Virus record (IMG/VR): IMGVR_UViG_3300032315_000166
Span: 1 to 59,289 of that record
DNA from: a virus
DNA: 59,289 nucleotides
Reading direction: 5' to 3' (one strand)
Under the pieces are notes generated by a model. The model saw nothing but the letters and a program-made list of their open reading frames with translations. It was not told where the DNA came from and searched no databases. A program made the position numbers and the translations under genes. How positions within the stretch are numbered: position 1 is the first letter of the stretch; each line of letters begins with the position of its first letter. Shown one piece after another: positions 8,135 through 32,847 of the stretch.

Positions 8135-11116
8135 TTAGTCGAACAGGGCCTGCTGCCCAGGAATCTGCGGCTCGCTCCCCGCACTGGCACCCGGCTGAGT
8201 CTCGGTCGTCGAGCGTCGAGGGCCAGACGGACTCAACTCCTTGATCCCATACCAATCCGTGCCCAGCAGCGCCTCCTTGCCCGGCCAGGTAGCGGCACCA
8301 TCGACGAAGCCCCACGACGCCACCTCGCGGGGGCTCGGATAGTCAGGATCCGATGTCGGTAGATCGAGCCGCGCCCGCAGGCTCCTGCCCGACCGCTCAA
8401 CCGAGCCGGGCAGCGCACCGCTATCGAGCACCTCATCGAACTGGTACTTGACTGAACTGGTCGCCCCACCGGTACGCGCCCAGTCGAAGCCCTGCCTCGC
8501 CCACGCGAACCCACCCACGTCGAGGGCGGCGTGGACATGCACGTCGGTGATGCCGTGTGAGATGTAGTAGTCCTCTGCCCGCTTATTGAAGACCTTGGCG
8601 AACCCGGTGCCCTGGTACTCCTCGTCGATTCGGAGGAGTTCGTGGCTTACAGCCACTCTGCCGTTGTCGTCGAAGAAGAAGCGTCGCTGGAACTCGCCGG
8701 CCCAGTCTCCATTCTCGGTGTAGATCGTGCCGGTGACATCGACGTGATTCTCGCCCCAGTAACGCTCGACAGTCACATCCCCGACCTCGGCTTGTAGCCG
8801 GACAACTCGACCATCAGGTGTCATGCCCTCGTGGCCTATCCCGTAGACCTCGTTGAAAGCGTCGGTGTCTAGCCCCTCTAGATCGGATTGCCGCATCTCG
8901 TCACCGTAGTCAGCGACGTAGAGATCCAAGTCGCTTTCCATGCGTGCTTCGAGGCGCTCGTCGAACTCTTGCTGGTAGGTGTTGCCCATGAGGGGCTCTT
9001 CATAATCGGGTTCGTCGCTGCGATCGACCCAGCCCTCGTCGGCCATCTCCTGCTCAACGGCCTCGCGGGCGCTCTCCTCGATGATCTCGGCGTAATCTTC
9101 ACGGACTCGATCGCGCAAGGCATCATCATCCATGCCGCCGGCGGCACCGACCTCCAACACGTCACGGCCCGGCCCCACGTTAGCCATCGCGTCGATGTCT
9201 TTCTGCCGGTCACCCCAACCCGACGCGCCACCGCCGCCGCGACCGTGAGACTTCTGGTCATGCGCCCCGCCCAGGTGCTTCCGCAGCGCCTTACCCACCC
9301 ATGACGGCTTACCGAACTGCTCATAGTAGGAATCGCGCAACGCAGAAGCCTGCTCCGCCGAGTAATCCCACGTCTTGCTGCGGCGCCGCAAGCCGAGTTT
9401 CTCAGCAATCGCCACCATGCGCTTCTGCACACGGCCCTCCGCCGCGCCGAGGCGCTGCGCCAGACGACTCGGACCAATATCTAGCCCCGAGTAGTCACCC
9501 TCAGTTAGGGCACGCGCAACTGCGTCCTGTTGCCGAGTGAAGTCACTCGTCCAATGCTCCTCCGGCGAGCGACTGCCGCCACCCTTACGGCCATGAGAAG
9601 CCTGATTATGTGAGCCGTGCTTCAGGACAGGTCGGAGTCCGGGCTCGAAGACGAGGACGACTCCTCGCCCGCGAACTTCGCCCACAGACTCTTTGCGTAC
9701 TCGTCGATCTCCGCGTCTGTCATCTTCGACAGGTCCGGCAGTTTCACTACCTGCAACGGCCTTTCCGACTGCTCCTGTGCCACCGGTATCTATCTCCTCG
9801 AAGTTGGCTACATCCCAAATGCTGATCTGGTCCCGCTTACGTCCCGCGTCAATAGCGGTGTCACGGTCCATGATGTTCTCGGACACGTCGAGGTACACCT
9901 TGCCGTCCGCCTGATTGTGCCACAACCCGAGGTAGGAGCCCTCGGACAACTCGCGGTTCGCCTTCATGAAAGAGCCCAACGCCTCAGGGCCACGCTCCGG
10001 GTCGTAGAACTCGTCGGCGTCCACGATGGCGCCCTTGCTGCCGCCCATGGCGACCATGAACCCCTTAGTGGGTTCGGATCCGTCGACCATGTTCACGGAG
10101 AGGCCGCCGTTAGCGCGGACCCGTTCGACGATGGATTGTGCGACAGTTCCGTCGAGTTTCAGGCTAGATCCGCCGCCGCCTCGGCGACCGTGCGTGGACT
10201 GGTCGTGGGTGCCGTGCTTGAGTACGGGGCGTAGTCCGGGCTCGAACGCCACGATCACCGACTTCGCCACCGTCGTAATGATCTCAGGATCCTTCGAGAC
10301 ACTGAACGTGTCCACAATGATCGTCCGCTCACCCACAGCCTTCTCTGTCGATTCAGGCAGATTGTCTCCCCAGAAATACTTATCCGCGAAATATTGTGAC
10401 GCTGGGTTAGAGGTGCGACCCCCCGTAAGCGCCCACTCCGTGTAAGACTCCGCCCACGTTTCAGCACCATTTGTTCGCCCATACTCACTAACACTGTCAA
10501 TGGCACCAGACTGAAACAGCGCGTAGTCATCTTGCGCCCCGCTCGATCGACGATCCAAGACGTGCCCGTATTCGTGGGTGACGTAGTAAGTCAATGGGCT
10601 CGCTGACTCGTAAGACGGCATGAAATGGCCTGGGTCTGGGCGTTCGGTAACTACGCCCTGCTCGACAAGACCGGGGCGCATGTTGATTGTCTTCTCGCCT
10701 CTAATGACGAATCCCATGGCGCCACCGTCGATGATGGCGGCCTCATCCCTGAAGGGCTGATCGCCGAAATGGACAACGAGATCCTTGACGGGATTGAGTT
10801 TCTGGACAGTGTCGATAGCGCCAAGTGCTTCATTCATCTTGGCAGGGTCGACTTGCTGGCTCGCATCATTGAACATCACACGGACAACGGTTCCATTGGG
10901 GCCGTCAAACTCGCGGGTGCGATCTGTGACCCTATCGGCAATCTCTTGCACGCGGCTTGGATCGTCATAGTGCTGGCTGAATCGCGACATCTGACGTTCG
11001 CGTACCGCATCGCGACTGCGCTCTGACCAGCCCTCGGGAAGATCAGATGTCCCGGCCTTGTGCGGGTTATGCGACGCCTGATTATGCGACCCATGCTTGA
11101 CAACCGTGTCCATCAC
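8135..11116 (-). CDS. Giant multidomain head-region protein: metallopeptidase, linker repeats, GNAT-like domain
   Basis: 993 residues. Four copies of a His-rich tether divide it: KHGSHNQASH at 7, KHGTHDQSTH at 300, KHGSHNQASH at 499, and a variant KHLGGAHDQKSH at 613. Between them: a zincin-like domain with HEYGH (181-185) and ETWAESY (219-225) supplying further ligands; a ~150-residue domain ending in KVYLDVSENI and ISIWD then GGTG; a helical HTH-like block (~515-600); and, after an acidic region, a GNAT-like acetyltransferase segment (~820-870: GTGFAKVF, DVGGFAWARQGFDW). Each looks like an effector or toxin-type module joined by a common linker. It lies directly after the MuF gene, as MuF-linked effectors do. 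Likely carried inside the capsid; targets unknown. Confidence 0.78.
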   Translation of the reverse strand: MMDTVVKHGSHNQASHNPHKAGTSDLPEGWSERSRDAVRERQMSRFSQHYDDPSRVQEIADRVTDRTREFDGPNGTVVRVMFNDASQQVDPAKMNEALGAIDTVQKLNPVKDLVVHFGDQPFRDEAAIIDGGAMGFVIRGEKTINMRPGLVEQGVVTERPDPGHFMPSYESASPLTYYVTHEYGHVLDRRSSGAQDDYALFQSGAIDSVSEYGRTNGAETWAESYTEWALTGGRTSNPASQYFADKYFWGDNLPESTEKAVGERTIIVDTFSVSKDPEIITTVAKSVIVAFEPGLRPVLKHGTHDQSTHGRRGGGGSSLKLDGTVAQSIVERVRANGGLSVNMVDGSEPTKGFMVAMGGSKGAIVDADEFYDPERGPEALGSFMKANRELSEGSYLGLWHNQADGKVYLDVSENIMDRDTAIDAGRKRDQISIWDVANFEEIDTGGTGAVGKAVAGSETAGPVEDDRRGDRRVRKESVGEVRGRGVVLVFEPGLRPVLKHGSHNQASHGRKGGGSRSPEEHWTSDFTRQQDAVARALTEGDYSGLDIGPSRLAQRLGAAEGRVQKRMVAIAEKLGLRRRSKTWDYSAEQASALRDSYYEQFGKPSWVGKALRKHLGGAHDQKSHGRGGGGASGWGDRQKDIDAMANVGPGRDVLEVGAAGGMDDDALRDRVREDYAEIIEESAREAVEQEMADEGWVDRSDEPDYEEPLMGNTYQQEFDERLEARMESDLDLYVADYGDEMRQSDLEGLDTDAFNEVYGIGHEGMTPDGRVVRLQAEVGDVTVERYWGENHVDVTGTIYTENGDWAGEFQRRFFFDDNGRVAVSHELLRIDEEYQGTGFAKVFNKRAEDYYISHGITDVHVHAALDVGGFAWARQGFDWARTGGATSSVKYQFDEVLDSGALPGSVERSGRSLRARLDLPTSDPDYPSPREVASWGFVDGAATWPGKEALLGTDWYGIKELSPSGPRRSTTETQPGASAGSEPQIPGQQALFD

Positions 11117-15705: not shown

Positions 15706-15969
15706 TCAAGAGGCTTTCATAACGGGGATGGGAATGATGTTGCGCTGCCGGCGGAGCAGGCGACGCTGATGCTCAGTCGTGCCGCCCCAGATCCCCACGA
15801 CGTTGACGTGTAGGGCGTACTCCAAGCAGGCGTCCTGCATCGGGCAAACATCGCACAGAGCCTTGACTTCGCGGATGTCCCGATAGACGATGCTGTTATC
15901 GGGGGTAAAGAACAGGTCGGTTCCCACCTGTGCACAAGGCTCGGAACCGGTAAAGGCTGGGTACTTCAT
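15706..15969 (-). CDS. WhiB-family [4Fe-4S] transcriptional regulator
   Basis: 87 residues from ATG 15969; GGGAGA lies 6 nt upstream, while the ATG at 15975 is too close. Four cluster cysteines (C12, C39, C42, C48: LCDVCPMQDAC), the GIWGG turn (59-63) and a basic C-terminal HQRRLLRRQR for DNA binding. WhiB proteins bind sigma-A region 4 and redirect promoter choice in actinobacteria. Coupled by ATGA overlap to a second WhiB. Likely controls host or phage promoters lacking a -35. Confidence 0.9.
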   Translation of the reverse strand: MKYPAFTGSEPCAQVGTDLFFTPDNSIVYRDIREVKALCDVCPMQDACLEYALHVNVVGIWGGTTEHQRRLLRRQRNIIPIPVMKAS

Positions 15970-18764: not shown

Positions 18765-18789
18765 AACCCCAGTGTAGCACACGGGGGTT
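18765..18789 (-). promoter_or_regulatory. Canonical phage promoter/operator element
   Basis: Minus strand AACCCCCGTGTGC, then TACACT (18776-18771), then GGGGTTG. Extended -10 and both arms are perfect. The upstream arm lies inside the 3' end of the previous gene (stop at 18788). Confidence 0.65.
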
Positions 18790-21471: not shown

Positions 21472-21497
21472 ACCACGAGTGTACCATACGGGGGTTT
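21472..21497 (-). promoter_or_regulatory. Promoter/operator element
   Basis: Minus strand AAACCCCCGTATGG, then TACACT (21483-21478), then CGTGGTG. The downstream arm is degenerate. About 25 nt before the start at 21453. Confidence 0.6.
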
Positions 21498-22871: not shown

Positions 22872-22997
22872 ATGGTCGAACGATGGATCTGGCGCTGCAC
22901 CCTCTGCGGGAAGACAGGCATCGCGAAGGATGCGAGTCGAGGCTTCACTGAGCACTACGTGGCGACCCACTCGGACCCCCCACTGTCAGGGGCATAA
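22872..22997 (+). CDS. Small C2H2-type zinc-finger protein
   Basis: 41 residues, ATG 22872. CTLCGK...FTEHYVATH gives C-x2-C and H-x4-H spacing, a single zinc finger. No RBS is visible, consistent with the predicted leaderless start. First gene of the only rightward block, and its stop overlaps the next promoter. Confidence 0.55.
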   Translation: MVERWIWRCTLCGKTGIAKDASRGFTEHYVATHSDPPLSGA

Positions 22998-23020
22998 CCC
23001 CCGTATGGTATCCTCGTGGT
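22996..23020 (+). promoter_or_regulatory. Rightward promoter element
   Basis: Plus strand AACCCCCGTATGG followed by TATCCT (23009-23014) and CGTGGTG. Same layout as the leftward copies but on the other strand, matching gene direction. Confidence 0.6.
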
Positions 23021-23057: not shown

Positions 23058-23267
23058 ATGAAGATCGACTGCTCGAACTGCATGACCACCATCACGGTCG
23101 ACCCCGATGCGGGCACGGCCACTTACACCCGTCCCGGCCAGGGGCAGGGCCGCAAGCGCATCCCGACCGAGACCATCGTCAAGCCCGCTTGGGACGAGGA
23201 TTGCCTGCTGGTCTGGGAGGCGCCCTGCTGCCCCGACTACGTCGACTCTTTCGAGGAGGGGACATGA
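23058..23267 (+). CDS. Small Cys-rich protein
   Basis: 69 residues, ATG 23058, GGGAAGGGAG upstream. CSNCMTTITVD and CCPDYVD could form a zinc site; basic middle (GQGRKRIPTETIVK). Unrecognised. Confidence 0.65.
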   Translation: MKIDCSNCMTTITVDPDAGTATYTRPGQGQGRKRIPTETIVKPAWDEDCLLVWEAPCCPDYVDSFEEGT

Positions 23268-23476
23268 GCACCGACTTCACCCTGCAACTGCTCGGGATCC
23301 ACGCCGGCAAGGGCGCGACCATCCACCTGTACGACCTCGACGGCGAGCGCCGCTTCACCGTCTGCGGGCGCCGCATCGGCGTGAACCCTCGACTGCTCGG
23401 CCCTGGCAACTCAACGAGCGTGTCGGCGGATCTCGCCGATTGCCCGAAGTGTCGCCGGAACTCCACGGCCTACTAG
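23264..23476 (+). CDS. Small hypothetical protein
   Basis: 70 residues, ATG 23264, overlapping the upstream stop by 4 nt; GGAGGGG lies upstream. Contains FTVCGRRIG and ADCPKCRRN near the end, a split zinc ribbon frequent in actinophages. Function unknown. Confidence 0.7.
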   Translation: MSTDFTLQLLGIHAGKGATIHLYDLDGERRFTVCGRRIGVNPRLLGPGNSTSVSADLADCPKCRRNSTAY

Positions 23477-23554: not shown

Positions 23555-23580
23555 AACCCCCGTGCAGTACAATGGGGGTT
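23555..23580 (+). promoter_or_regulatory. Rightward canonical promoter element
   Basis: Plus strand AACCCCCGTGCAG, TACAAT (23568-23573), GGGGGTTGAG. Perfect arms and a near-consensus -10. Confidence 0.65.
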
Positions 23581-23598: not shown

Positions 23599-23886
23599 AT
23601 GACCAAGAAATGCCGCGAGTGCTACGCCCGAGTGGGCGCCGATGGATGGCGCTGCGACCCCTGCGCCGCCCGCTGGAAGAAGTACACCGACGACTACATC
23701 GCAGCCCGAGCCGCATCCGGCGGCAAAGGATGGGAGCACGCCAACTGCGACCACGCCTACGGGTACTGCGCCGCAACCCCAACCAACACCTTCGAGTCCT
23801 GCAAGGGCTGCCGAGACGCTGCCGCCAAGGCCGCCTCGACCGGGCTCGACTACATCTGCATCGCCCACGAAAGGAGCCCCGCATGA
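23599..23886 (+). CDS. Cys-rich zinc-binding-type protein
   Basis: 95 residues, ATG 23599, GAAGGGAG upstream. Cys pairs at CRECYARV, CDPCAARW, then NCDHAYGYC and SCKGCRDAA, so potentially two zinc ribbons. Second half is Ala-rich. Unrecognised. Confidence 0.7.
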   Translation: MTKKCRECYARVGADGWRCDPCAARWKKYTDDYIAARAASGGKGWEHANCDHAYGYCAATPTNTFESCKGCRDAAAKAASTGLDYICIAHERSPA

Positions 23887-24119
23887 GCAACATGGACATC
23901 ACCCCCGAGCAGTACCTCGAACTCGGCATGACCCGCAAGGGCCTGATCCTCGACCTCGTCAACAGCATCGACAGCGACCTGCTGATGCTCGCCAAGGACG
24001 AGTACGCCGCCAACGACGGAGCCACGACGGTCGCCGACCGGGCCACACGCCGGCTGATGAACCTCGTCGCCCTCATCGAGCCCGACCTCATCAACATCAA
24101 CCCCGAGGAGAACGCATGA
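23883..24119 (+). CDS. Hypothetical helical protein
   Basis: 78 residues, ATG 23883, ATGA overlap. All-helical (MTRKGLILDLVNSIDSDLL, ATRRLMNLVALI). Unrecognised; coupled to neighbours on both sides. Confidence 0.65.
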   Translation: MSNMDITPEQYLELGMTRKGLILDLVNSIDSDLLMLAKDEYAANDGATTVADRATRRLMNLVALIEPDLININPEENA

Positions 24120-24340
24120 CCGAACACGCGCCCTCCATCACACACATGAGCCTCAAGGCACGGCAACGCGCCGCACGGCAGTGGGCCACATGGCGCAACG
24201 CCGGCGAAGGCGCCGAGATCACCTGCCAGCGGGCCTACGAACTCACCGGCATCGACTGGTACGGTCAGCGCGACCCGCGAGTGCCCGTCCGGCTCACCGC
24301 CGTCGCCATCAACTACATCAAGAAGGGAGAACGCCCATGA
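24116..24340 (+). CDS. Hypothetical basic protein
   Basis: 74 residues, ATG 24116, ATGA overlaps at both ends. Arg-rich helix (LKARQRAARQWATW), then AYELTGIDWYGQRDPRVPV. Could bind nucleic acid. Immediately upstream of the deacetylase-like gene. Confidence 0.65.
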   Translation: MTEHAPSITHMSLKARQRAARQWATWRNAGEGAEITCQRAYELTGIDWYGQRDPRVPVRLTAVAINYIKKGERP

Positions 24341-25221
24341 CCACCACCATCATTCACAGCGACACCTACTCACACTGGGCGTTCGACCCCGAGCACCCCA
24401 CGCAAGGCCGCCGCTTCGACAAGGGCCTCGACGCAATCACCATGGCCCTCGAAGAGGACGGCCGCCAGTATCGGATCGTCGAGCCCGAGCAGGCCACCCT
24501 TTACGACCTGCACCGGGTACACACCATCGGTTACGTCTCCAAGGTCGAGCAAGGCTTCAGCGACGAATGGTCCGGGGCACGCCCCGACCTCGGATCCCTG
24601 GCCTCACTGTTCGTCGGCGGCACACTCACCGCCCTTGACGCGCTCACGAAGACCAAGGGGCTCGCCGTCAACCTGCCCGGAGCGAAGCACCACGCCATGG
24701 CCGACCATTCCAGCGGATTCTGCGTGTACGCCGACTTCGCGATCGCAGCCGACATCGCCACCGAGCAAGGCCACCGTGTAGCGATCCTCGACATCGACGC
24801 GCACCACGGCGACGGCACCGAGGCGCTCACCCGCAGAAACCCGAACGTGCTCACGTTCAGCGTGCACGAGGGCGGCATCTTCCCCGGCACCGGGCTCACG
24901 GACGACAAGCAGCACAACGTGTACAACGACCCTCTGCCGCAACTCAGCGGCGGCGGGCACCTGCTGAACGCCGTCGACCGGTTCATCGAAGTTGGTGACC
25001 CGTTCGAGCCGACCATGCTTTTCATCGCCGGCGGTGCCGACGGGCATTGGCGTGACCCGCTGTCGAGCCTGCTGTACTCCCTCGAAGACTACGAGGAGGC
25101 CATGTGGCGGGTTCGCATGACGTTCACGTCGCTGCCGATCCTGTTCGGTGGTGCCGGCGGGTATCAGCCTGACGGTGGCACGCCCCTATCGTGGGCAGCC
25201 ATGATCCGGGGACTCACCTAG
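24337..25221 (+). CDS. Histone-deacetylase / acetoin-utilization-like deacetylase
   Basis: 294 residues, ATG 24337 (AGAAGGGAG upstream; overlaps previous stop). Complete arginase/deacetylase-fold catalytic set: His-His dyad H118-H119 in LPGAKHHAMADHSSGFC, zinc ligands D154 and H156 in LDIDAHHGDG, a further D235 in AGGADGHWRDP, and catalytic Tyr276 in GGAGGYQPDG. Length and order match class I/AcuC-like enzymes. Known substrates of the family are acetyl-lysine, acetylated polyamines and similar amides. Here it may deacetylate host proteins, small molecules or a modified base precursor. It is the last gene of the rightward block and meets TerL tail to tail with overlapping stops. Confidence 0.88.
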   Translation: MTTTIIHSDTYSHWAFDPEHPTQGRRFDKGLDAITMALEEDGRQYRIVEPEQATLYDLHRVHTIGYVSKVEQGFSDEWSGARPDLGSLASLFVGGTLTALDALTKTKGLAVNLPGAKHHAMADHSSGFCVYADFAIAADIATEQGHRVAILDIDAHHGDGTEALTRRNPNVLTFSVHEGGIFPGTGLTDDKQHNVYNDPLPQLSGGGHLLNAVDRFIEVGDPFEPTMLFIAGGADGHWRDPLSSLLYSLEDYEEAMWRVRMTFTSLPILFGGAGGYQPDGGTPLSWAAMIRGLT

Positions 25222-26819
25222 AGCGCACCCCACGAGTTGACCTGCCCGATTCCGATCGGCTTCACGTTCGGCACGGTCTTCCCTGGCGGTTCATAGATCG
25301 CGAGCAAGATCGCCTCGGCACGGTCAGGGCTCGACACGCCGCGCCGCTTCATCTCGGCTTTCGTTTCGATTTGGATGCGGCCGGCGGAGTCTGCCTTGAA
25401 CGTGGGGCCGGCCAACTGGGTCATCACTTTCCGGTCCACTTCGAGACACAGGTCGGTGGGGCCATCGGCCCTGGGTTGCATCATGAGGCGCCCGTTCCAC
25501 CACAACTCCGAACGAATGTTACGGAACTTCTGCGGATCCTTCGCCCGCTCGGCCACATTCACCGGCACGATCGTGGACTTGTGCCGGCCTTCCTGCCCCC
25601 ACGTCTGCAACATGGACACCACACCCCAGCCGACGCCGATGGTGTCGATCTTCACCCTGACGGGGTTCGTGATGTCGCGTTCCGTGTGGACGGCTTCGGC
25701 CTCGTGGATAGCGGCGAGCGCGATACCGGCCACGTCGACCGCGTTCTGATTTGTTTGCCCGCTCGACCGGTGCACGATATCGACATAACCGCCGTCCGCT
25801 TTGGCGATGACGTATTCGTCTCCGCCGTCTGCCGCCACGTCGATGCCGAGCCGGATCTCACCCCGAGGGATGGCGTCCTCATTCTCTGCGGACCTTTCGC
25901 ACCACGAATACGGGATGACCTTGTTCGCTGTTGAGCGTGGGAAGCGTGCCAGGACACGGGCTTCAACGAACGGCGAGTCGTCACCGAACTCGGTGATCAC
26001 GTCGTCGACCCATTTCTTGTCCACGAGGTGATCGGTGATGTAGTGGTCCCCTACCTGGGGTGGGCACGTCTTGCACAGGCCAACAGGTTCGCCCGTGAAG
26101 TTGGGGGTGTCATAAGCCGAGATCGTGATGGGGTGATACAGGGGCGAGTTGAAGCACCGCTCGAACCACGAATCCTCTTCATCGGTGGGCGGGTTGCCGA
26201 GGAGGAGGAGGCGGGTGTTGCCGCCAGTCATAAGTGCTTCGAGGGCCTGACCGACGACTTCCCCGATACCGCCGGCCTCGTCGACCACGATGAGCAGGTT
26301 CGGTGAGTGGATGCCCTGCGTGGCGGCCTCATCGTAAGGGGACGGGGAGAAGCCATAGGCGGCCACATCTCCACTGACCTTCCACATCGACGTAAGTACC
26401 TCGCCGGGCAGTTTCCCGATGTAGTGGCAGCGGCGAATGTGAGGCCAGATGATGTTGCGAACCTGCCGGTGCGTGGGGGCGATCGTAATCGCGAGGCTCG
26501 TGCCCGGTGCGTGAGACGCAACCCACCACGACACGATGCGGGCCGACAGCCACGACTTACCGGGAGCGTGACAAGCGGCGACAGCGGTGCGCTGATTCTC
26601 GATCACCGAGTTGATGATCTCCCGCTGCTTCGACCACACCGTTTCGCCGAGGGCCTCGGTGATGAACTTCAGGGGCTCTTCCTCGTACTGAGCCCACGGG
26701 TTGCCTTCCTCAGCGGCCAGCAACCGGTCGAGGTGAACTTTCTCGTGAGCGGTCAACGTCGTGTAGATGCGGAGCCGCTGCTCGGGTTCTGCCGTGAGTA
26801 CCCGGTCGACCAGTCTCAC
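25218..26819 (-). CDS. terL: Terminase large subunit
   Basis: 533 residues from GTG 26819, chosen because it overlaps the upstream stop as GTGA and follows GGGAGG; GTG 26843 in the same frame is an alternative. ATPase: variant Walker A CHAPGKS (~83-89) and Walker B LLIVVDEA with D180/E181. Coupling motif LLLLGNPP. RNase H-like nuclease: LGIDVAADGGDEY (D327), KIDTIGVGWGV (D392) and PDRAEAILLAIY near the C-terminus. DNA translocation and cutting during packaging. Its stop shares the palindrome CTAG with the converging deacetylase gene. Confidence 0.94.
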   Translation of the reverse strand: MRLVDRVLTAEPEQRLRIYTTLTAHEKVHLDRLLAAEEGNPWAQYEEEPLKFITEALGETVWSKQREIINSVIENQRTAVAACHAPGKSWLSARIVSWWVASHAPGTSLAITIAPTHRQVRNIIWPHIRRCHYIGKLPGEVLTSMWKVSGDVAAYGFSPSPYDEAATQGIHSPNLLIVVDEAGGIGEVVGQALEALMTGGNTRLLLLGNPPTDEEDSWFERCFNSPLYHPITISAYDTPNFTGEPVGLCKTCPPQVGDHYITDHLVDKKWVDDVITEFGDDSPFVEARVLARFPRSTANKVIPYSWCERSAENEDAIPRGEIRLGIDVAADGGDEYVIAKADGGYVDIVHRSSGQTNQNAVDVAGIALAAIHEAEAVHTERDITNPVRVKIDTIGVGWGVVSMLQTWGQEGRHKSTIVPVNVAERAKDPQKFRNIRSELWWNGRLMMQPRADGPTDLCLEVDRKVMTQLAGPTFKADSAGRIQIETKAEMKRRGVSSPDRAEAILLAIYEPPGKTVPNVKPIGIGQVNSWGAL

Positions 26820-27073
26820 TGTGCCTCCCAGAATCTCGCCCACTGTTCAATGTCACCGGTCACGTCTTCTATTCCGTCCCGGTAGGCGTGGGCCTCAGCG
26901 ACGGTGTGGTCGAGGCGCACCGGTCGGGCTTGCGCTTTCGGTAGGAGCCGGTCACAGATCCACTCGTCGACCGCTTCACACGCGAGAGCGGCGACGGCCT
27001 GCACCTGGGCGGGAGTCCAAGCCTCGTACAGGATGCCCCCGAGGCGGTGCGCGACGTAGTCCTCCCGTGTCAC
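26816..27073 (-). CDS. Hypothetical protein upstream of TerL
   Basis: 85 residues, start at 27073. Helical (VQAVAALACEAVDEWI, GDIEQWARFWEAQ) with a basic middle. Overlaps both neighbours by 4 nt. Unrecognised. Position suggests a packaging accessory, but no motif supports it. Confidence 0.65.
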   Translation of the reverse strand: MTREDYVAHRLGGILYEAWTPAQVQAVAALACEAVDEWICDRLLPKAQARPVRLDHTVAEAHAYRDGIEDVTGDIEQWARFWEAQ

Positions 27074-32823: not shown

Positions 32824-32847
32824 AACCCGAGTGTACTACATGGGGTT
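32824..32847 (-). promoter_or_regulatory. Promoter of the replication operon
   Basis: Minus strand AACCCCATGTAG, TACACT (32835-32830), CGGGTTAG. About 29 nt upstream of the Gam-like start. A second TACACT-like site in opposite orientation is at 32863-32868 (GGGGGTACACTAAACCC), of unclear meaning. Confidence 0.6.

Follow-up and report, generated by a model that had tools for sequence, protein, structure and literature searches.

A predicted HDAC-family zinc deac(et)ylase of an AcuC-related clade encoded by tailed actinophages

Introduction

Which substrate would an enzyme of the HDAC family have if it is encoded by a tailed phage, and how exceptional is such a gene? Both questions are raised by a gene on a viral DNA stretch of 59,289 bases, which represents an entire IMG/VR record and is called the window in the following. 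The phage-encoded acetyltransferase Rac reshapes its host (PMC7552054). In the literature, which we covered in part so that absence is weak evidence, phage deacetylase lineages did not come up, nor did a paper presenting an eraser of acylation as a gene conserved in a phage lineage, and a 2024 survey of bacterial deacylases leaves phages unmentioned.

Results

The gene spans positions 24337-25221 (+), an open frame whose translation is exactly 294 amino acids long. It starts with an ATG within an ATGA overlap with the upstream gene, with AAGGGAG as ribosome site. At its 3' end it meets the convergent gene of the terminase large subunit (terL, 25218-26843, -), whose stop overlaps its own, the two genes sharing 4 bp; terL served as synteny anchor of the lineage (cluster 1, 60 loci). 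Compared with its two closest relatives, the enzyme gene shows dN/dS ratios of 0.19 and 0.31 and is thus under purifying selection, which excludes a chance ORF.

The protein matches PF00850 over residues 31-291 (5.2e-51, far above the cut-off), and its AlphaFold (AF2) model reached a pLDDT of 95.5 and a pTM of 0.94. The best structural match in VIA-align was the solved lysine deacylase 5zmp (Z 39.5, rmsd 1.8, 286 residues aligned); solved HDACs gave Z values of 37.6-39.5, with ApaH and HDAC6 lying within 1.5 Z units of 5zmp. All key residues named in the preliminary description were confirmed, namely the zinc ligands D154, H156 and D235, the His dyad H118-H119 and Y276, and each of them is identical in 83/83 aligned homologues. 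The same is true for D152, D159 and the gatekeeper L242, while K117, assigned to the foot pocket, is kept in 82/83. Given the full-length PF00850 match, the predicted fold and the catalytic residues, the enzyme belongs to the HDAC / arginase-deacetylase superfamily, and the domain match and the invariant residues bear out its initial reading as a class I/AcuC-like deacetylase that is full-length (294 residues) and whose active site is intact.

The active-site signature is GAKHH...AGGY, the latter part (A273-G-G-Y276) corresponding to the (G/A)GGY motif of the AcuC type. In strict deacetylases and ApaH, RPPXHH together with EGGY closes the foot pocket, in AcuC XGGLHH and (G/A)GGY leave it open, and in VcHdaH the residue immediately preceding the two histidines lines the acyl chain (PMC11532494). 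Judged from its position in the sequence, K117 would line the foot pocket of the phage enzyme and bring a positive charge there, and it may shift the acyl preference.

In our tree, which was built without eukaryotic class I enzymes and from which Rhodococcus phage E3 gp202 was excluded for its branch length of 8.8, all GAKHH proteins form one clade (100/99) that is sister to AcuC, and the rows with RPPGHH/EGGY (class II/ApaH) fall outside. Since the XGGLHH motif is absent and GAKHH stands in its place, we regard the enzyme as AcuC-related and do not file it as AcuC. Monophyly of the virus proteins within the GAKHH clade received a support of 51/75, so that neither the direction nor the number of phage-host transfers can be told.

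The same clade comprises chromosomal proteins of the GAKHH/AGGY type, which are encoded by small-genome actinobacteria (L086, L182-L193), by Aurantimicrobium (L130) and by a Micrococcales MAG; the L086 protein is 47% identical to that of the window. Such copies are rare, as they occur in 12/296 genomes of one small-genome actinobacterial order and in 1/198 genomes of another order. Next to these copies or close by, a vWA gene is found in 8/14 cases and a dual-specificity phosphatase gene in 5/14; NrtR-type regulators occur nearby in two cases, and the Aurantimicrobium copy has NERD-helicase and GmrSD-type genes, both of them defence genes, on its two sides. No acetyl-CoA synthetase gene and no acuAB turned up in the neighbourhoods of the phage genes, nor in those of the cellular GAK copies that we inspected. 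As a separate observation, an actinobacterial gene group (L098:1984-7694, L287, L288, L285) combines an NrtR-type NUDIX regulator or a sigma-like factor with a vWA protein, a dual-specificity phosphatase and a GAKHH deacylase, and possibly represents a stress or conflict system.

Relatives of the enzyme are encoded on 276 contig stretches of IMG/VR, the best 80 of which share at least 52% identity with it over nearly the full length. From the best 80 terminase matches, which include near-identical contigs, we took the 27 terL loci flanked by at least 6.5 kb: the enzyme gene is present and convergent with terL in 24 of these and missing from 3. Within these best 80 terminase matches, the enzyme is close to a core gene of a large actinophage lineage. 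Such a deacetylase had been considered unusual in a tailed phage, but the 276 relatives and the 24/27 terL loci contradict this view. Isolate phage collections are poor in the enzyme, and a homologue search of deposited phages delivered as credible matches only Magritte gp204 (40%) and the divergent E3 gp202. Matches in Staphylococcus records and in Pseudomonas phage Y10 were rejected as phage enzymes, since host contamination is likely in these unannotated or unverified records; the Pseudomonas aeruginosa enzyme L007 has ApaH features. PHROGs, NCBIfam and PADLOC yielded no match to the enzyme. A DNA-pattern search with the GAKHH codons in 396 Actinomycetota genomes matched chance sites as well, and deacetylases were found at 0/12 loci inspected.

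The window encodes a terminase, a Mu-like portal, MuF, an XkdF-type protease, a tape measure and a major tail protein, and host contamination as its source was rejected, since phage genes are present throughout. It further encodes a WhiB-like regulator (15757-15939, -; PF02467, 1.5e-16, above the cut-off), a mark of an actinobacterial host. Of the 25 virus records considered, 20 carry WhiB, as does the actinobacterial genome, and this indicates actinobacterial hosts. Elsewhere in the window, the motif KHG[STD]H[DN]Q[SA][ST]HG recurs six times between 5098 and 14022 (-): it occurs at the C-terminal end of the portal and in two large multidomain proteins of 993 and 855 aa that follow MuF. Behind its copies in related contigs lie varied effector-like domains, identified by eye as ADP-ribosyltransferase-like, metalloprotease-like and GNAT-like, and the motif might mark effectors carried in the virion, as a prohead tag or a cleavage tag. 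A GNAT-like domain is found at 8402-8884 (-), inside the 993-aa protein.

Five to six tiny Cys-rich genes had been described in front of the enzyme gene. The count of five is correct, while the cysteine content holds for three of them, which encode proteins with several Cys: 23058-23267 (+, 69 aa), 23264-23476 (+, 70 aa) and the Cys-rich 23599-23886 (+, 95 aa). It does not hold for the two genes directly before the enzyme, 23883-24119 (+, 78 aa, 0 Cys), which shares an ATGA with the preceding gene, and 24116-24340 (+, 74 aa, 1 Cys), which overlaps the enzyme gene. A promoter-like motif with the consensus AACCCC[CA][GT]TnnnGTACACT is located about 40-50 bp upstream of start codons. It has five copies in the window, each in front of an operon (18771-18788, -; 21478-21495, -; 22997-23014, +; 23556-23573, +; 32830-32847, -) and is kept in the related records L002 and L003, while by counts alone it shows no excess over chance within the window. 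The copy at 23556-23573, AACCCCCGTnnnGTAnnnT, would head the transcription unit of the enzyme, opened by the gene of the 95-aa protein, and the copy at 22997-23014 the two genes upstream of this unit. From these two motif copies, we judge that the small genes and the enzyme gene form two putative transcription units, and the split at 23556 places three small genes before the enzyme in its own unit. A phage sigma system or one linked to WhiB perhaps recognises the motif.

An HslV-like peptidase gene (PHROG 1040, 1.5e-33) lies downstream of the enzyme gene in 55/73 viral loci with at least 2 kb of downstream sequence. The gap between both genes is 9-44 bp in 33/59 loci (L028:10922-11482 and 58 similar ones), and T1, D17 and K35 (mature numbering) of this HslV/proteasome-like peptidase are intact in 59/59. 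No such peptidase is present in the window, in L003 and L002 or in other subgroups, and it is consequently not required by the deacylase. In most relatives, the adjacent peptidase may share a programme of host-protein remodelling with the enzyme.

Discussion

Taken together, we lean with modest confidence towards a zinc-dependent lysine deac(et)ylase that is catalytically competent, belongs to a separate AcuC-related clade and strips lysine acyls from proteins in the infected actinobacterial cell. The enzyme would be produced inside this cell and would deacylate lysines of host or phage proteins, taking off acetyl groups or other short acyls, whereby the phage would reset part of the host acetylome during replication. 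As far as the sequence allows a judgement, the enzyme is probably active and its substrate is probably a protein lysine rather than a small molecule, while a benefit to the phage seems plausible. Acetyl-CoA synthetase is among the proteins that AcuC deacetylates (PMC11532494, PMC13039410). However, the cellular homologues of the phage enzyme adjoin vWA, phosphatase and NrtR-type genes and not acetyl-CoA synthetase, and thus the AcuC substrate should not be assumed here. Among the targets proposed in the preliminary description, acetylated proteins are still the best guess and N-acetylated metabolites are still candidates, while polyamines have lost weight; the precursor of a modified DNA base was dropped, as no supporting gene was found nearby or among the proteins scanned.

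One might alternatively envision a small-molecule amidohydrolase that acts on an N-acetylated metabolite, a cell-wall precursor, a nucleotide sugar or a NAD-related acetyl compound. The superfamily includes such enzymes with DmhA and PrpH, and cellular GAK-type genes adjoin an NrtR-type regulator and a phosphatase. However, the phage neighbours are tiny proteins, a peptidase and the terminase, with no biosynthetic genes among them, and we consider this alternative rather unlikely.

A more far-reaching form of protein deacylation is a new deacylase subfamily kept mainly by actinophages, whose foot-pocket lysine alters the acyl preference, for example towards anionic succinyl or malonyl groups, and which rewrites the host acylome, mostly together with the phage HslV-like peptidase. 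We hold this to be unlikely as a whole.

A polyamine deacetylase would free spermidine or putrescine from N-acetylated stores for phage DNA packaging and translation, comparable to the giant-virus enzymes. Among the viral members of the superfamily, activity has indeed been proven for the N-acetylspermidine amidohydrolases of Imitervirales (PMC9992855), and the model resembles msAPAH with a Z of 38.1; this value is close to the 39.5 of the lysine deacylase, so that the fold alone selects no substrate. The active site, however, points in another direction. At 294 aa, the enzyme lacks the L2 polyamine-specificity loop, present as an insert in the P. aeruginosa enzyme L007, and it carries GAKHH/AGGY where the acetylpolyamine amidohydrolases of cluster 4 have RPPGHH/EGGY. 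Its gatekeeper is Leu242 in 83/83 homologues (D-P-L), in contrast to Glu in HDAC10 and Ile in bacterial ApaH (PIS), and the P(E/A)CE helix of the HDAC10 type is missing, with PECE absent from the sequence. Thus, polyamines appear quite unlikely as substrates.

Very unlikely, in our estimation, is an eraser for counter-defence or self-immunity that undoes acetylation, be it the work of a host defence or of the GNAT-like domain which the phage itself encodes in the tagged multidomain protein (8135-11116). The leading PDB fold matches of this domain (8402-8884) are nearly all acetyltransferases, arylalkylamine/dopamine acetyltransferases make up 6/11 of its weak sequence matches, PF00583 matches occur in related contigs (3 over the cut-off), and the Aurantimicrobium copy of the enzyme sits between the NERD-helicase and GmrSD-type genes. 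Nevertheless, the GNAT assignment is weak, with a fold E of no better than 1e-3 and a model of pLDDT 64.6, a GNAT is not shown in many carriers of the enzyme, and PADLOC did not recognise the enzyme. To our knowledge, there is no acetylation-based defence against these phages, which speaks against such an eraser as well.

That lysine deacylation exposes substrates to the HslV-like peptidase or a host protease is scarcely credible: the peptidase gene directly follows that of the enzyme (9-44 bp in 33/59) with catalytic residues intact in 59/59, but the window, L003, L002 and other subgroups lack it and the deacylase would have to function there without it.

If the lysine deac(et)ylase that we favour is active, protein deacylation would be a routine step in a large actinophage group. 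With 294 residues, a confidently predicted active site and a single testable odd residue, the enzyme represents an easy handle.

Among known systems, AcuC (cluster 2c of the classical deacylases) is the sister clade and shares the fold, the catalytic residues and the motifs SGFCV, FPGTG and (A)GGY with the phage enzymes. It differs in having GG[LM]HH instead of GAKHH, in an identity of about 30-35% and in a long separating branch (1.36). The acetylpolyamine amidohydrolases of Imitervirales are virus-encoded members of the same superfamily too. However, they differ in hosts, origin and active-site motifs, share 17-24% identity, and some of them have proven polyamine substrates. In a PNAS survey on the polyamine enzymes of viruses, ApaH homologues were confined to Imitervirales (PMC9992855), and among the viral structures of BFVD all significant HDAC-fold matches stem from giant viruses. 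A phage homologue that is already annotated as putative histone deacetylase is the distant gp202 of Rhodococcus phage E3. It belongs to a tailed actinophage and to the same superfamily, yet it is very divergent, with H157, D159 and the GAK motif all missing. Microbacterium phage Magritte gp204, annotated as hypothetical, is in contrast of the GAKHH type and 40-43% identical over its full length. Yet Magritte is a 133-kb phage with another gene neighbourhood, and gp204 groups with the Micrococcales and Aurantimicrobium copies.
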